A DNA stretch of 64,000 nucleotides from a virus, in the IMG/VR virus record IMGVR_UViG_3300049434_000028, positions 1 to 64,000 of that record; one strand, 5' to 3'. The translations under genes were made by a program, and so were the position numbers. Below are positions 37,073 to 44,083 of this stretch, piece after piece. The notes beneath the pieces were generated by a model. It had not been told where the DNA came from. It did no database searches and was given only the letters and a program-made list of their open reading frames with translations. The number at the start of each line of letters is the position of its first letter. Position 1 is the stretch's first letter.

Positions 37073-37899
37073 GAGACTGCCGTCGCATCGGTCGCAGGAG
37101 TGGGGTTCGCCAGACTCTTGTCCTCGAACTTCCCGCTCGCGTACTTGGCCAACTGGGAGAAGGTGATGGACGCAGTGGCGCGCATCGGAGTCATATTGGA
37201 CCCGAAGTGCGTGTAGTCCACGCCCATGCCCGCGATGAACCCGAACCAGGCCAACGGTTTGGCCAGCAGCACCCCTGACGTCCCGAACACCAGGTTCATC
37301 GGGATGCGCAGCATCGGACCCTGCCCACCGAGCGACGAGCCGGTGGTCCGGTAGATGCCGACGCAGCGTTCCAGCGCGGCGATGTCGGCGTAAACGCCTT
37401 GTGACAACGCTTTTGAGTCGCTACCCGTCAGCGAGAACACCTCGTAGGTGCGGTCGAACAGGAGGGAGAAGGTGACCGCCTGCATGCTGGAGATCAGGGC
37501 CTGCGCTTCCTTCTGACCCGTGGTCTGGGCCTCACTCGGGAGCACGTTGAGGTTGCTCTCGTAGGAGACCGAGATGACGCTGGGGTTGTAGAGGAAGTTG
37601 CACCGGTAAGGCTTCGCCTGCCCGGTCCCCTTCCAATAGCTCTTGTCCTGTTCCAAGTAGCCCCGGTACAACGGCCCGGACAGGCCGGTGTTGTTCCAGC
37701 TCATGATCCTGGCGTCGAAGGCGGGGTTCTCGTAGCCGAACTCCTTGCCGTCCGCGGCGGCCTTCATCTTGGCCGTAGTGCTGGACTTCTGATCGGCCAG
37801 ATTCTGCGCCGTAGCTACCGGCCCAATAATGGTCTTTTTCTTAGAGGCAGCGATCTTTTTCGCCTGCGTAGTAGTGGGGTCGAACGGGTTCCCTGCCAT
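37069..37899 (-). CDS. Tail protein between tape measure and LysM genes, 276 aa
   Basis: 276 residues from ATG 37899 (TGATG overlap with the tape measure stop). Lys-rich N-terminus, then PYRCNFLYNPSVISVSYESNLNVLPS, ALISSMQAVTFSLLFDRTYEVFSL and GPMLRIPMNLVFGTSGVLLAKPLAWFGFIAGMGVDYTHFG, a pattern of tail-initiator or baseplate proteins in actinophage myoviruses. No enzymatic motif. Confidence 0.65.
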   Translation of the reverse strand: MAGNPFDPTTTQAKKIAASKKKTIIGPVATAQNLADQKSSTTAKMKAAADGKEFGYENPAFDARIMSWNNTGLSGPLYRGYLEQDKSYWKGTGQAKPYRCNFLYNPSVISVSYESNLNVLPSEAQTTGQKEAQALISSMQAVTFSLLFDRTYEVFSLTGSDSKALSQGVYADIAALERCVGIYRTTGSSLGGQGPMLRIPMNLVFGTSGVLLAKPLAWFGFIAGMGVDYTHFGSNMTPMRATASITFSQLAKYASGKFEDKSLANPTPATDATAVS

Positions 37900-40868
37900 C
37901 AGTCGCCACCCATCACTGCGGCGATGCGTGCATCGCTCTCCAACCTGCTGGCCACTGCCCCGACAAGCCGTTGCGCGTCGGCCACCGAACCGGATGCCAT
38001 CTGGATCGGCATACTCAGGTGCACGACGATGGAGCGAGCGCCCTGCACAGGCGCGGGAGTACCGCTCGTACCCTCCTTGCCGCGCCGCACGTAGTCGCGC
38101 ATGCGCTTCGCCGACGCAGCAGGAACGACCATCTCGCCGTGGTGGATCATCGCGAGCTGGTCGCCCTGGATGTTCCAGGCGCCTTCCTTGTACCAGTGCG
38201 GGCTCCGCGCCTGCCACTTGTTCCACGCGATGGCGGGCGTACCGTAGCGGCTCTTGATGTACTTCATGCCCGCGTCGATCTGGATGTGCGGGTCGGCCGA
38301 CTTCTTGTAGCCGTAGTCCTTCCACGTCGAGTTGAGGAACTGCGCGATGCCGTACGCCGTCGATACCGGGTTCTGCGCGGTGGACTTCCAACCGCTCTCG
38401 TGCTGCCACAGGGTGTCCAGCGAGGCCCACTGGTTGGCGCCCCAGCCGTAGGCCGCCATCCGCCCCTTCGCGTACGCACGCGGGTCACCGGACTGCGGGG
38501 TACTCCCCGCCTTGGCCGAGGAGACGCCAGCGGGGCTGGAGCCAAAGCTGCGAGGAGCGCTGCCGAGTGAAGGGCTGTACACGTCGACATCGTTGATGTC
38601 CTCCGACCACCCCTGGTAGGGCTTCCCCCATCGCCGGGTGATGTCGGAGATGCTCGCCTTGTCGATCCGGCCGTCGCGAACGAAGTCGTTCGTCCACACG
38701 TATCCACCGCCCGCGCTGAGCGCGACGTGGCCCTGCCCGCCGGTCCACCACACCGGAACGCCGGGCGGCGGGGTACCAGAGTGGCGCTTCCTCGTATGCG
38801 CCCAACCGATCGCAGCGGTCCCGTACTTGGACGGCACGCCCAACGCCATGCGTACGTCCATGAGGCACTTGTTGTGCCAGTTGGACGCGCCACTGCGGGA
38901 TTGCCGCTGCATCCACGAGAGCGCGGCTGCACCTCGACCCGTAGCCGACCCACTGTTCGAGCCCGTCAGCTTCCCCAGGGCACTGACGACCGCACTCCCG
39001 GAATTCCCTACGGCACCGACCTTTCCTACCTTCGACCCGGACCCCCCGCCCGGCGCCGCCATGTCGCCTACGCCGCCAAGAATGTCCTGCAGAGCGCTGT
39101 TTCCAGGGTCGCCAGGCGTGTTCGGTGTAGCGACCCGGTCCAAGCCCGCGGTTACCGCGTCGATCTCCTCCACCGATCCCGTGCCACCGCCACCACCGGG
39201 ACCGCCGTGCTCACCACCGAAGAATCCAAGAGCGCCGCCTACCAAGGCGCCGACGCCGCCGCCGATCGCGGTACCGATCCCAGGAGCGATCATCGTGCCG
39301 ATCATTGCCCCCGTACCGCCCATCTGGGCAGCACCAGTGACTACTCCACCGACCTTGTTCCTCGTCGCACTGCTGCCATCACCTGAGATCAGGCCGCCAG
39401 CAAGCGAACCGCCGAGGGCCGCCGCCGCGCCGATGCCAACGCCCTTCACCCGCGGAGACATCCCTATACGTGGGCGCGGCCCACCACCAGGTCCCCCGCC
39501 CGCGCCTCCTGCTCGGCCACCCATGATCCGGTTCATCGCGTACATGCCCGCGATACCGCCACCAAAGTTGCTCGCAGCACTCACTGCGCCCATGAGCGGT
39601 CCGGCCGCAGCCGCACCTGTGCCCATCACGCCGCCGAGGATCCCGCCCCCCGCGCCGAGCGCGGTGTTGAGGTTCCGGAACGCCGAGGCGGCTGCGTCGA
39701 CCTGCCGTCGGAGCTGAGGGAGCGCGCTGTCGGCCAGCTCCTGCTCAACCCCTGCCTTTGCCTGCGCCTTGCGCCGATCGGCGTCGAATACCGTGTCTCC
39801 GATCTGGCTCGCGCCCCCGCCTGTCTTGGACAGGGTGCTCGTCATCTTGCTCGAACTCGCACCACCCATCTTGCTGGCGGTCTCCCCGTAGCTGTAGATG
39901 AACTCCTGCGTGGATGCGTCGAGCCCGAGACTGCTCATCGTTGCGCGCATGTTGGAGCCCTCAGCGCGGCCCTCGTTCAACGCCTGAGCCGACGGCATCT
40001 TCCCGCCGTAGATCTTCTTCAGGAGCTGCTCGGCGATCTGCTCAGGAGTCTGCTTCACCCCCCCACTGCCGATCGTCTTGATGCCCATTGGCATCAGGTT
40101 GTAGTAGGCCTGCGGTGAGTAGAACCCGGTAGCCGCCGCTGCGCCCTGCTCATAGCTGCCGAGCAGGTTGCCAGCTCGTCCAGCGGATGCCTGCAGTTGC
40201 TGCGAAGCGCCGCTCATGCTAAGTCCCTGGCGCTCCCGAATGGTCTGCAGGCCAGCGAACGCGTCGGCCGAGCTGGTGTAGCCGGTCAGCCCACCCTGGC
40301 CAGGACCGCCGAACCAGGAGTGACGCGCCTGGCCCATGACCTGGTTGACGTTCCCCGAGCTGCCCCACGCGGTGAGCTGCGAGAGACGCTCGGCGTTGAC
40401 CCAGTTGTCGCGCTTGCTGTTGCCGTACGCAGCCAGCCCGCCGGTAACCGCCCCCGCCACCGCCCACTTCTGCCCCGTGCTCAACGAGAACCGAGAGTTG
40501 CCGCCGTTTGGAAGCGGCCCGCCGTCGTTGTCGCCGCCCGAGCCGCCTTGACCGCCACCGGTCATACCCGAACGACGTGCAGGTGCGGTGGCTGGCCGCG
40601 TGGAGAACGTCGAGTCCCCGCCATTCGCGCTGCCCCCGCCACCCGACCGACGGCCGCCGCCCATGCCCCCGCCGAGCGCGTCGAGCTTCGTGCCGTCGAT
40701 CTTCTTCAGCTCAGCGTTGAACTCTTTGACGTTCTTAACGAGCCGTTCCCATTGCTTGTTGAGGTTGTCCAGCGACTTCGTGTCGACCTTGAACCCAGCC
40801 GTCACCGTGCCAGCGCGGCCACCGCTGCTGCCCGCGCCGCGCCCTAGACCTGGCTGGTTCTCGGCCAC
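37899..40868 (-). CDS. Tape measure protein with CHAP-like and transglycosylase domains
   Basis: 989 residues from GTG 40868 with GAGGGAG upstream. N-terminal 60 residues are helical, followed by Gly/Ser-rich segments, then helices and hydrophobic Gly/Ala stretches (residues about 370-560) typical of tape measure proteins. Residues about 650-790 form a CHAP-like peptidase (SNWHNKCLMDVRMALGVPS with Cys near 667, VWWTGGQGHVALSAGGGYVWTNDF with His near 714). Residues about 800-905 are a lytic transglycosylase (ASLDTLWQHESGWKSTAQNP with Glu near 823, STAYGIAQFLNSTWKDYG). These probably cut the peptidoglycan during injection. Confidence 0.9.
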   Translation of the reverse strand: MAENQPGLGRGAGSSGGRAGTVTAGFKVDTKSLDNLNKQWERLVKNVKEFNAELKKIDGTKLDALGGGMGGGRRSGGGGSANGGDSTFSTRPATAPARRSGMTGGGQGGSGGDNDGGPLPNGGNSRFSLSTGQKWAVAGAVTGGLAAYGNSKRDNWVNAERLSQLTAWGSSGNVNQVMGQARHSWFGGPGQGGLTGYTSSADAFAGLQTIRERQGLSMSGASQQLQASAGRAGNLLGSYEQGAAAATGFYSPQAYYNLMPMGIKTIGSGGVKQTPEQIAEQLLKKIYGGKMPSAQALNEGRAEGSNMRATMSSLGLDASTQEFIYSYGETASKMGGASSSKMTSTLSKTGGGASQIGDTVFDADRRKAQAKAGVEQELADSALPQLRRQVDAAASAFRNLNTALGAGGGILGGVMGTGAAAAGPLMGAVSAASNFGGGIAGMYAMNRIMGGRAGGAGGGPGGGPRPRIGMSPRVKGVGIGAAAALGGSLAGGLISGDGSSATRNKVGGVVTGAAQMGGTGAMIGTMIAPGIGTAIGGGVGALVGGALGFFGGEHGGPGGGGGTGSVEEIDAVTAGLDRVATPNTPGDPGNSALQDILGGVGDMAAPGGGSGSKVGKVGAVGNSGSAVVSALGKLTGSNSGSATGRGAAALSWMQRQSRSGASNWHNKCLMDVRMALGVPSKYGTAAIGWAHTRKRHSGTPPPGVPVWWTGGQGHVALSAGGGYVWTNDFVRDGRIDKASISDITRRWGKPYQGWSEDINDVDVYSPSLGSAPRSFGSSPAGVSSAKAGSTPQSGDPRAYAKGRMAAYGWGANQWASLDTLWQHESGWKSTAQNPVSTAYGIAQFLNSTWKDYGYKKSADPHIQIDAGMKYIKSRYGTPAIAWNKWQARSPHWYKEGAWNIQGDQLAMIHHGEMVVPAASAKRMRDYVRRGKEGTSGTPAPVQGARSIVVHLSMPIQMASGSVADAQRLVGAVASRLESDARIAAVMGGD

Positions 40869-41021
40869 TACGACTCCCTCTTCGTCATCCCTAGACGCTT
40901 AGCCACTACCTCGGTCCAGTACCGACGCTCCCGCACCGTCATCTTCCGAAGCTCCGTCAGATTCCATCCGCTGAAGTACTGCCCGATGTGTCCGTAGTCG
41001 ATGAAGACCTGCTGGTAACTG
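40868..41021 (-). CDS. Startless +1-frame extension of gp51-like protein (DUF6760-like)
   Basis: Frame open from 41095 to the TAG at 40870-40868, with no ATG, GTG or TTG before codon KMTVRERRYW. It encodes SSYQQVFIDYGHIGQYFSG and WNLTELRKMTVRERRYWTEV, the signature of the small protein that follows the gp51-like gene in many contractile phages. It lies in the +1 frame of 41022-41930; TTT at 41036-41034 (followed by C) is a slip-prone codon. The TAG overlaps the tape measure GTG. Programmed frameshift, re-initiation or an indel are possible. Confidence 0.55.
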
Positions 41022-41930
41022 CTAGAAACCGCGAAACATGGTCGCCACGTCGATGACGAGCGGGAACTCGCGGTCGCACTCTGGGCACGCCTGCTTCACC
41101 TCATCCCACAGCGGTCCGGGCTGAGAGTCGGTCAGGAACTGCAGGAGTGCCTGCCGGTCGGCGGTACCCATCGACCGGATCGCCGCCATCGGCACAGGGT
41201 CGCCGTCGATGGTGAGGATGCAGCGCTTCAGCAGCATGGTGTTGATCTCTGCTGCAGTGCGCTGCGAGTTCTCCGCGGTGTACACCGATCGCTGAGTGCC
41301 ACCGTTGATCAAGTTGATCTCGACACTGCCGCCCTTGCGCAGCGGGACGAAGTAGGTGTGCCGCGCCGCGTCCAACGTGATGACGTCCCGGCCGTCCCGC
41401 AGCTTGACCACGAGCCCGTCGAGCTGGCGGACCTTGACGTCCTTGGTGAAGCTGTAGTCGACCTGGAACTCGTGCTTGCAGTCCAGCCTAGGGCAGGTCA
41501 GGTCGAGCCGCATGACGTCGCCGTAGGTGGCGATCCGAATCCCCTGCAACAGCATGTCCCGGTCACCGATGAGCAGATCGTCGAGCATCTCCTGCGTGCA
41601 CGGATGATCCCCGATCCGCTCGACGCACCGCACCAGCAGGGTGTTGATGAACTTGGTGAAGTCCCGCGTGACCGCGGGCCGCGACAGCTCCTCCTCATCC
41701 TCCCCGCACAGCTCGCGCACGCGGGCCTCCTTGATGACCCCCCCTTCGCTCAGGTACCCACCCGGCAACGTGACGGTGCCGTCGGGTGGGGCACTGATGA
41801 GGATCGGCTTGTCGTCCTCGTCCTCTCCTACGCCCATCGCCAGATTCCCGAGCATGTTCGCCATCTCGGGGTTGGTGCCAGGGTCGATCTCTATGCCGGT
41901 TACTAGCCCCTCAAGCTGATCCGCCGTCAC
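41022..41930 (-). CDS. T4 gp51-like baseplate hub assembly protein (PF12322 type)
   Basis: 302 residues. Core features: VRELCGEDEEELSRPAVTRDFTKFINTLLVRCVERIG, LLIGDRDMLLQGIRIATYGDVMRLDLTCPRLDCKHEF, and a C-terminal CPECDREFPLVID. The pattern (GxDEEE, GDR.xLLxxIRxxTYG, CPxxxC) is typical of the PF12322 tail/baseplate family. N-terminal 70 residues are acidic. Probably a chaperone that assembles the tail tube or tape measure. Confidence 0.82.
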   Translation of the reverse strand: MTADQLEGLVTGIEIDPGTNPEMANMLGNLAMGVGEDEDDKPILISAPPDGTVTLPGGYLSEGGVIKEARVRELCGEDEEELSRPAVTRDFTKFINTLLVRCVERIGDHPCTQEMLDDLLIGDRDMLLQGIRIATYGDVMRLDLTCPRLDCKHEFQVDYSFTKDVKVRQLDGLVVKLRDGRDVITLDAARHTYFVPLRKGGSVEINLINGGTQRSVYTAENSQRTAAEINTMLLKRCILTIDGDPVPMAAIRSMGTADRQALLQFLTDSQPGPLWDEVKQACPECDREFPLVIDVATMFRGF

Positions 41931-41957: not shown

Positions 41958-42536
41958 TTACTTGATCGTCGGTGCGTCTGAGGTGTACGGGTCGGCCGCG
42001 TAGCTCGGCTTCCATCCCTCGTGCTGGATGACCATCTGTTCCATGAGGATGCCGTTGCCACCGGCATCGAGGTCGCTAAAGCTGATGCTGCCCGGCCAGG
42101 CGTTGTAGACCTTGAACCGCAGCTTCACCGGCACCTTGTTGTTCAGGGTGTACGGGTGGGCGAGCACCGAGATGTCGATGTTCGACCGGAAGTCCTTGCC
42201 CTTCTTGGGCGCGTACGAGCCACCGCCCTGGATGACCGAGAAGATCTCGCGCACCCACTCGTACGCATGCGGGGTGTTCACCATGACGCCGCGGGACAGC
42301 GTGATCGGCGTGAACTCCGACTGCCCCGGCATCTTCTGGGGCGTCAGGTTGTAGCCACCCTGGCGATACGCGATGACCTGCGTCTCGACGTTCAGTCCGG
42401 CACAATTCATGAAGCCCAGCTCAATGAGCTTCCTGTTGCCACCGGCAGTGACGTGGTTGATGTTGACTATGAAGCGGAAGTTGCGCAGCGGATCGGTCGC
42501 GATCGAAGACCGCGAGTCCTTGACTGTCTCTGGCAT
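41958..42536 (-). CDS. Tail tube protein
   Basis: 192 residues from ATG 42536 (overlaps the sheath stop). Matches the gp19-type tube family: DPLRNFRFIVNINHVTAGG, FMNCAGLNVETQVIAYRQGG, KMPGQSEFTPITLSRGVM, KVPVKLRFKVYNAWPGSISFSDLDAGGNGILMEQMVIQHEGW. Gene order (sheath, tube, gp51-like, tape measure) is the myovirus standard. Multiple copies form the rigid inner tube. Confidence 0.93.
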   Translation of the reverse strand: MPETVKDSRSSIATDPLRNFRFIVNINHVTAGGNRKLIELGFMNCAGLNVETQVIAYRQGGYNLTPQKMPGQSEFTPITLSRGVMVNTPHAYEWVREIFSVIQGGGSYAPKKGKDFRSNIDISVLAHPYTLNNKVPVKLRFKVYNAWPGSISFSDLDAGGNGILMEQMVIQHEGWKPSYAADPYTSDAPTIK

Positions 42537-44083
42537 TAGACCTCCTCGTTGACGGTGGAGCCGGACTCGAACTGACCGATCTTCAAGACGATGAACTCGG
42601 CGGGAGTCTCCAGAGCCACGCCGACCTCGATGTGCACCTCGCCGTTGTTCACAGCGTTCTGCGCGTTGGTGTCCTCGTCGCACTTGACGTAGAACGCCTC
42701 CTCCGCAGTAGTTCCACGAAGAGCGCCGTCCTGCCACAGCTCCAGCAGAACGCGCGAGCAGACATCCTCCAACGAAGCCCAAAGCTGCTCGTCGTTGGAC
42801 TCGAACGCTGCGAATCGCGTGGCGTTGGTGAGCGCCATGCGCAGCGCGATCAGCGTGCGCCGAACGCTGACGTACTTGTCGATCTGATTGAGCTTTAGCG
42901 TGCGCGCACCAAAGATGCAGAGCCCGTTGCCGGGGACCGACTTGATGACGTTGACCTTGCCCATGTTGAGGGAGTCCATCTCAGACTCCAACGCCCGGTA
43001 CTCTAGGGCCACGACGCCGTTGAGGCGGTTGTTGATCCCCGCCGGAGCCTTGTGCGTCCCGCGCTGGGTATCCGTGGCGACGTACTGCCCGACGACCGCG
43101 CCGCCAGGCGGGATGAGTCGCGTGCTGCCCGGCACCGTGTTGCTCGGGTCGCTGATCGCGAGCTGCGGGTAGTACACCGCTGCGTAGCTGCTGCTTGTGT
43201 ACGCCGCCGCGGTGGTGATGAGCTGTGCAGGAGTCTGTGCAACGGCGCAGTCGACGACCAGGAAGCAGGTCCCGCGCGTCTCGCAGAAGGTGATCATTGC
43301 GTTGACCGTGGCCGTGTCGACAACGCCGGGGATATTGATCGTGAGGAAGTCGTCCACGAGCGCCAGCGTGGCCGCCGCGTTGTACAGCTCGCTACCGGCT
43401 CCGACGGTCGGGGCCGCACCATCCGCACCGGAGGTGAGCACCTCACCGCCAGCCGGGGACACCGCGGGGACGATCGTGCCCGCAACGTAGGTGGCGGAAC
43501 TCAGGTTGGTCAGCCTGATGTACACGCTACCGGTGGTGGGGGAGTTCAACAGCGCGGGCGCATACCGCCCATCGGTCGGGTCCATCGACAGGTCGGTCCA
43601 ACGCTCAACGATGAACTGGTCGCCGGAGCCACCCAGACGCACCGTCAGATTGAACCGGCCGGGGAGGCTCGACCCCACGTCGGAGATCTCGGTGTAGATC
43701 ACGTTGCCCCAGGCACCAGGGTTCAGCGCATCGACCCGCAACAGCGGCGCCGGGGTGCCCGCACGGTCGTTGTAGGTGCGCGTCGCCACGACCGCACCGG
43801 CACCGACTGCACGCACGATGTAGGCGGCTTGCCCGCCGTTGTTGTAGTACTGGAACACCGCGTGCGCCAGTGCCTGGTTGGCTCCGGCGAACCCGCCGTA
43901 GAGCTTCACGAACTGGCCCCACGAATTGATCAGCGTCGGCAGGCCGAGGATCGTGCCCGGCTGCACCGGTCCGCGGGTGGATACACCGACGAACGCGGCG
44001 ACGGTGATCGCAGGGAAGGAATCGGGCGTGGTCTGGAGGAGGGACTCCTCCACATACACGCCTGGGCGCTTGTATGTCGCCAT
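42536..44083 (-). CDS. Tail sheath protein
   Basis: 515 residues. N-terminal signature YKRPGVYVEESLLQTTPDSFPAITVAAFVGVSTRGP and C-terminal SVRRTLIALRMALTNATRFAAFESNDEQLWASLEDV, LWQDGALRGTTAEEAFYVKCDEDTN and INVGVALETPAEFIVLKIG-like strands match contractile sheath proteins. The central part carries a variable insertion. The ATG is preceded by TTTAGGAGACC. It contracts to drive the tube. Confidence 0.95.
   Translation of the reverse strand: MATYKRPGVYVEESLLQTTPDSFPAITVAAFVGVSTRGPVQPGTILGLPTLINSWGQFVKLYGGFAGANQALAHAVFQYYNNGGQAAYIVRAVGAGAVVATRTYNDRAGTPAPLLRVDALNPGAWGNVIYTEISDVGSSLPGRFNLTVRLGGSGDQFIVERWTDLSMDPTDGRYAPALLNSPTTGSVYIRLTNLSSATYVAGTIVPAVSPAGGEVLTSGADGAAPTVGAGSELYNAAATLALVDDFLTINIPGVVDTATVNAMITFCETRGTCFLVVDCAVAQTPAQLITTAAAYTSSSYAAVYYPQLAISDPSNTVPGSTRLIPPGGAVVGQYVATDTQRGTHKAPAGINNRLNGVVALEYRALESEMDSLNMGKVNVIKSVPGNGLCIFGARTLKLNQIDKYVSVRRTLIALRMALTNATRFAAFESNDEQLWASLEDVCSRVLLELWQDGALRGTTAEEAFYVKCDEDTNAQNAVNNGEVHIEVGVALETPAEFIVLKIGQFESGSTVNEEV

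Follow-up and report, generated by a model that had tools for sequence, protein, structure and literature searches.

Frameshifted tail assembly chaperones are a classical theme and are known in -1, -2 and +1 versions (PMC5009743). In phage lambda the G/GT pair comprises a short and a long protein made from one gene between the tail tube and the tape measure genes, with a -1 shift just ahead of the stop codon of the short form (Xu, Hendrix & Duda 2004; PMC5009743). TTT-CGC was proposed in 2020 as the +1 site of the chaperones of the HF1-group haloviruses (PMC7230728), and some T4-like phages are mentioned as carrying short and long chaperone genes (Vladimirov, Gautam & Davidson 2022 via PMC10885494). 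The subject of the present analysis is a gene of the T4 gp26/gp51 family (Pfam PF12322, T4_baseplate) on a 64,000-nucleotide (nt) stretch of viral DNA, hereafter the window, which is part of the 102,797-base IMG/VR virus record IMGVR_UViG_3300049434_000028. The minus strand of the window carries, in this order, genes for a tail sheath, a tail tube (gp19 family), a 302-amino acid (aa) PF12322 protein and a tape measure protein. Judging from comparison of the sequence with its relatives, a programmed +1 frameshift at UUU_C very probably yields both a short and a long tail assembly chaperone from this one PF12322 gene. The arrangement resembles lambda G/GT in the position of the gene and in the placement of the shift beside the stop of the short form, but the lambda shift is -1 while that of the window would be +1 at UUU_C, in proteins of the gp26/gp51 family.

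The PF12322 gene of the window ends with GCG ACC ATG TTT CGC GGT TTC TAG. The proposed shift site is its sole TTT codon, compared with eight TTC, and the tail genes of the window together use 64 TTC versus 6 TTT. The +1 frame begins right after a stop, with its first codon at 41095, and stays open to 40868. The -1 frame at the zero-frame stop, which a lambda-type -1 heptamer (X_XXY_YYZ) would use, is closed 65 nt downstream without encoding the domain. A first-pass annotation made from the window had located this open frame, its conserved-looking protein end, the TTT at 41036-41034 as the codon that could re-pair as TTC, and the overlap of the tape measure GTG with the +1-frame stop (TAGTG, at 40868); all of these positions and the frame relation proved correct, and the protein end is found as a domain in all relatives. 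It had also described the beginning of the +1 frame as free of ATG, GTG and TTG, which is so, although this stretch extends over the first 51 codons and not 45; the earliest ATG, at 40942, lies within the conserved domain.

The evidence for the shift comes from the relatives of this locus. A scan of IMG/VR with the window protein alone found nothing, and an alignment-based scan retrieved 518 relatives. Together with 16 BRock-like loci and others, 105 loci were readable and form 60 clusters at 85% nucleotide identity. Every one of the 60 clusters has a zero-frame TTT one to seven sense codons ahead of the stop, followed by C in 59 and by T in one, and in every one the +1 frame is open into the same domain. 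Since the distance to the stop is not fixed, TTT plus a pyrimidine is the constant element. The codon that follows in the A site is CGN in 40 clusters, CAR in 12, CTY in six, and CCG and TGG in one each. The uniform use of TTT at the site (60/60) is not a general property of phenylalanine codons in these genes: two other conserved Phe columns have TTT in 28/49 and 21/41 cases, the remaining Phe codons are divided into 174 TTT and 227 TTC, and 17 clusters with a strong preference for TTC elsewhere still have TTT at the site. A naive calculation from each gene's own usage gives a figure of about 10^-28, for which no formal probability is claimed because the clusters are related. The cultured Streptomyces phages BRock, LuckySocke, Alone3, pSt2308 and GiJojo share the gene order and the +1 relation, with the site CTG TTT C(GC/AG) GAA CTC stop, and the order tube, chaperone, tape measure recurs in BRock, SP-15 and GiJojo.

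An open frame of 76 codons is by itself unremarkable at 65% G+C. The +1 frame of the window nevertheless exceeds chance expectation, because the frame relation and the TTT hold in all 60 clusters and because substitutions follow its codon structure. In the first 60 nt past the zero-frame stop, differences between close pairs are distributed over the three +1-frame codon positions as 288/73/466, and codon changes amount to 395 synonymous and 272 non-synonymous (the pairs overlap). Comparison of the relatives thus shows conservation of the UUU_Y site, of the frame relation and of a coding constraint on the +1 frame, and it supports the earlier proposal of a +1 programmed frameshift at a TTT re-pairing as TTC in a tail chaperone. 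A sequencing indel or a pseudogene, with both frames really belonging to one gene, would be compatible with the view from a single genome; this explanation has become vanishingly improbable and was rejected, as the same +1 relation recurs throughout the relatives (60/60 independent clusters), finished phage genomes as well as bacterial assemblies among them, and the zero-frame stop is retained one to seven codons past the site. An indel that restores one ordinary open reading frame (ORF) was seen in no relative.

All 60 clusters share the motif Y...YExL...GWxLxEIRxLxxRERxxW in the extension. If this extension were instead a separate small gene, translation would have to reinitiate once the zero-frame stop is passed, using a rare start such as CTG or ATC or an internal ATG, GTG or TTG. 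Database annotators did choose such starts for LuckySocke gp91 and BRock gp135, and 37 of 59 clusters have some ATG, GTG or TTG in the stretch from the upstream +1 stop to the conserved core. These codons stand at scattered positions, however, the other 22 clusters, the window included, have none at all, the annotated starts cut the conserved domain, and reinitiation leaves the constant TTT plus pyrimidine before the stop unexplained. With no start consistent among the clusters, the separate-gene reading was rejected as quite improbable. The treatment of the extension in public records is uneven: in Streptomyces phage annotations (loci L002 at 3926, L004 at 3755, and L005) the small ORF that follows the PF12322 gene either begins at internal codons that cut the domain or, as in pSt2308, is absent; LuckySocke gp91 starts from an ATG inside the conserved core and BRock gp135 from a TTG.

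In the proposed +1 mechanism most ribosomes would read the PF12322 gene to its stop and release the 302-aa short form. In a minority the P-site tRNA-Phe would slip forward by one base, from UUU to UUC (or to UUU in relatives), where its GAA anticodon would fit UUC better after re-pairing. From there, translation of the +1 frame would produce the 353-aa long form, which has a three-helix T-like domain at its C-terminus and the predicted junction ...TMF-AVSSSYQQV... If the lambda G/GT pair is a guide, the tape measure protein would be coated by many copies of the short chaperone, the few long copies would bring in tail tube subunits, and both forms would depart before the tail is completed. Slippage itself, its +1 rather than -2 direction, its low efficiency and the chaperone role are what we infer from these comparisons.

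The site has counterparts outside phages. Influenza A PA-X is made by a +1 shift at UUU_CGU whose site and direction were determined by mass spectrometry, with P-site tRNA-Phe slippage as the favoured mechanism (PMC3498833), and plant amalgaviruses use UUU_CGN (PMC3498833, PMC5052127). These share with the present family the proposed P-site slip from UUU to UUC, the preference for CGN in the A site (40/60 clusters here) and the lack of an evident 3' structure, but they are eukaryotic RNA viruses and the genes are unrelated. The chaperones of the haloarchaeal HF1 group and HSTV-2 have the same gene position, the +1 frame and the TTT-CGC site but belong to another protein family (phrog_12163/14268) and to viruses of archaeal hosts (PMC7230728; PMC5009743). 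We located the TTT CGC +1 site in HSTV-2 (locus L109, 14982-15813) and in HF1 (locus L110, 34257-35040). Homology of these proteins to the PF12322 family was looked for and not found, and it therefore appears that chaperones without common descent came to use UUU_C independently of each other. UUU-pyrimidine sites are also reportedly +1-prone in E. coli, a result ascribed to Schwartz and Curran in 1997.

The same frame could be reached by slippage of two bases backwards, and phage Mu does use -2 for its G/GT pair (PMC5009743). In most relatives of the window tRNA-Phe would then have to pair with UGU (from NUG UUU C), a poor match, and the shift would have no need for the C or U after UUU, while a +1 step would let it pair perfectly, with UUC or UUU; for PA-X at UUU_C, moreover, the direction was demonstrated to be +1 (PMC3498833). 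A -2 event is accordingly a very improbable route to the long form.

The zero-frame gene of the window belongs to PF12322 T4_baseplate, the T4 gp26/gp51 family, with a Pfam match at E 1e-5 (25.8 bits against a cut-off of 24.5) and a phrog_150 match at E 1.8e-8. Zero-frame product and extension were folded separately and not as a fusion. The former gives a model with pLDDT 89 and a fold resembling gp26-type proteins, with matches to Aeromonas phage 25 gp26 (E 1.5e-4) and the SP-15 baseplate hub protein (E 9.4e-11); a search of the viral library ranks T4-like baseplate hub proteins first (E 2.5e-20). The extension is modelled as three helices (pLDDT 83); its fold matches are not significant, but the first seven include two from phages with gp26-fold matches as well (LE4, ctgXL3). 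Its matches to Pfam and PHROGs are weak (DUF6760, E 0.17; phrog_634, E 0.14), and the link to gp51 is drawn from its position, from the phrog_634 match of a -1 relative and from a profile-profile comparison of +1-type with -1/gp51-type extensions (probability 88%, E 2.9e-6). T4 gp26 and gp51 are paralogues (E 2e-6), both in PF12322, and of the two gp51 alone has the T-like end matching phrog_634. T4 has the same family with gp26 as the short and gp51 as the long protein, but as two separate genes and with no frameshift. By this correspondence of the sequences, the short product of the window locus resembles gp26, and the out-of-frame part is the counterpart of the additional C-terminal segment of T4 gp51; in calling the upstream gene gp51-like the first-pass annotation had the family right and the name wrong.

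These family labels raise another reading, in which translation of the +1 frame does occur, yet the fusion serves as a component of the virion or the baseplate hub and not as a tail assembly chaperone. Pfam and PHROGs label the family baseplate or hub, and genetic work on T4 assigned gp26 to the hub (PMC3004832). The same source gives gp51 as absent from the final particle and counts gp26 and gp51 among the hub assembly chaperones. Short- and long-type T4-like tail assembly chaperone genes have been identified, as noted in PMC10885494, and lambda G/GT likewise lies between the tube and tape measure genes. A structural role for the fusion is thus unlikely, if less so than the other alternatives.

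The frame of the extension differs within the family. In cyanophages, KVP40, phiM12, Mendera, Atu_ph04, K493, 121Q, Atu_ph07 and SCTP-2 the extension after gp26 is in the -1 frame. The Kyanoviridae and the KVP40-, phiM12- and 121Q-type phages have the same T-like extension beside the stop as the +1 members, but in the -1 frame. Nearly all sites of the -1 members are T_TTT_TTC or T_TTT_TTT; that of K493 is CTT TTC. The gp26/gp51-like pairs of cyanophage-like and other T4-related records are, on this evidence, likely products of a -1 frameshift; because an ATG overlaps the stop in several -1 members, coupled initiation is possible in these. Annotated gp51 starts in cyanophage-like and other T4-related records (loci L115 and L117-L123) often cut the conserved part. 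In a tree of 55 proteins every +1 user falls on one side of a branch with support 97/87, and T4 gp26 and gp51 stand among the -1 users, joined to each other on long branches.

The +1 arrangement extends well beyond the close relatives. At TTT_C sites, +1 extensions are present in two cultured phages, SP-15 of Bacillus and GXN1 of Streptococcus, and in the megaphage LR756508; where the neighbouring genes are annotated, their order is the same. A scan with their proteins gave at least 508 further relatives, 80 of which were examined: 64 distinct loci are +1 and none is -1, four are ambiguous under the length rule, three run off the contig end and the remainder are copies. The sites at these distant loci read TTT TTT TGG, TTC TTT CGT, TTC TTT TGG and similar. 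The cultured phages LIS04 (Listeria), immuto (Flavobacterium) and Mel-JY01 (Microcystis) are also +1, and the same arrangement is present at UUU-pyrimidine sites in 10 of 11 loci of actinobacterial and Bacillota genome assemblies.

Several points weigh against a programmed +1 shift to a chaperone as set out here. The frameshift product is so far a prediction. Searches for a conserved 3' RNA structure (mean z -0.53; window +0.8) and for a Shine-Dalgarno-like upstream stimulator (duplex -3.22 versus -2.82 kcal/mol for shuffled sequences) found neither. The LIS04 site is TTT TTT A, with a pyrimidine after the first TTT only, and at many SP-15-type and marine sites the run of T is longer, as in TTT TTT TGG, on account of which transcriptional slippage is conceivable there. 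The PDB contains no relative by sequence or by fold, and it is homology and gene position that suggest the chaperone role. Given the lack of 3' structure and of an internal Shine-Dalgarno, the level of frameshifting is probably low, which would fit the gpG:gpGT ratio of about 30:1 in lambda (PMC5009743).

On balance, a UUU_Y +1 frameshift probably produces the gp26/gp51-type chaperone across a whole clade of bacterial contractile-tailed phages, with sister groups using -1 and T4 using two genes; the clade includes actinophages, phages of Bacillus, Listeria, Streptococcus, Flavobacterium and Microcystis, and many environmental viruses. Frameshifted tail chaperones, the TTT-CGC +1 site of haloviruses and the short and long genes of T4-like phages are already known. 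No description of +1 frameshifting in the PF12322 family was found in the literature, subscription papers aside, and the forward shift in this family appears to be a new and widespread variant of the known mechanism. The first-pass annotation had expected a +1 event here to be unusual, an expectation that does not hold: for this branch of the family +1 is the rule, and sites of this kind had already been published for other genes, those of PA-X and of haloviruses. To our knowledge, only a few natural +1 programmed frameshifts are well documented in bacteria, namely prfB and the tail proteins of Listeria phages and SPP1. If the interpretation is true, UUU_Y +1 slippage is very widely used in bacteria, and the statement that long-tailed phages 'except T4' have conserved G-T frameshifting needs qualification. 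The site seemingly needs only UUU_Y and a codon context, retained in roughly a thousand viral contigs with a match and across several host phyla, and so offers a large natural data set on tRNA-Phe slippage. One protein family would reach the same two products by three routes, a +1 shift, a -1 shift and two genes, and a conserved extension is mis-started or missing in many phage annotations.

Table 1. Features of the chaperone locus and its neighbours in the window (all on the minus strand).
Feature	Position	Strand	Details
Zero-frame gene, PF12322 T4_baseplate/phrog_150, 302 aa	41022..41930	-	GTG 41930, TAG 41024-41022; short form (G-like, T4 gp26-like)
Putative shift site TTT_C	41033..41036	-	TTT 41036-41034 to TTC 41035-41033; E-site ATG, A-site CGC
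+1-frame extension (T-like domain), 54 residues post-shift, AVSSSYQQVFIDYGHIGQYFSGWNLTELRKMTVRERRYWTEVVAKRLGMTKRES	40868..41035	-	stop TAG 40870-40868
Predicted frameshift product, 353 aa	40868..41930	-	299 residues to shift-site Phe + 54; inferred from translation
Tape measure protein, 989 aa, transglycosylase (SLT) domain	37899..40868	-	GTG 40868 overlaps extension stop (TAGTG)
Tail tube protein (T4 gp19 family), directly upstream of PF12322 gene	41961..42542	-	PF06841 E 5.4e-28
Tail sheath protein	42539..44083	-	PF17482 E 7.4e-8, phrog_23 E 4.2e-47

In the tape measure protein the SLT domain is C-terminal and is preceded by a match to phrog_12298 (membrane associated protein). Among bacterial genomes, the chaperone module occurs on Streptomyces, Nonomuraea, Actinomadura, Terracoccus and Saccharothrix assemblies (loci L126-L134), several of them long chromosomal scaffolds. 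The chromosome of Ramlibacter monticola (locus L135, 3500-3960) carries a distant PF12322-like gene that ends at a run of nine T, with the -1 frame continuing into a domain, HYHWSEAAILGLPRRKRLRYLQLL, which by eye is like DUF6760 of contractile injection systems. Such injection systems may make the same short and long pair by -1 or transcriptional slippage.

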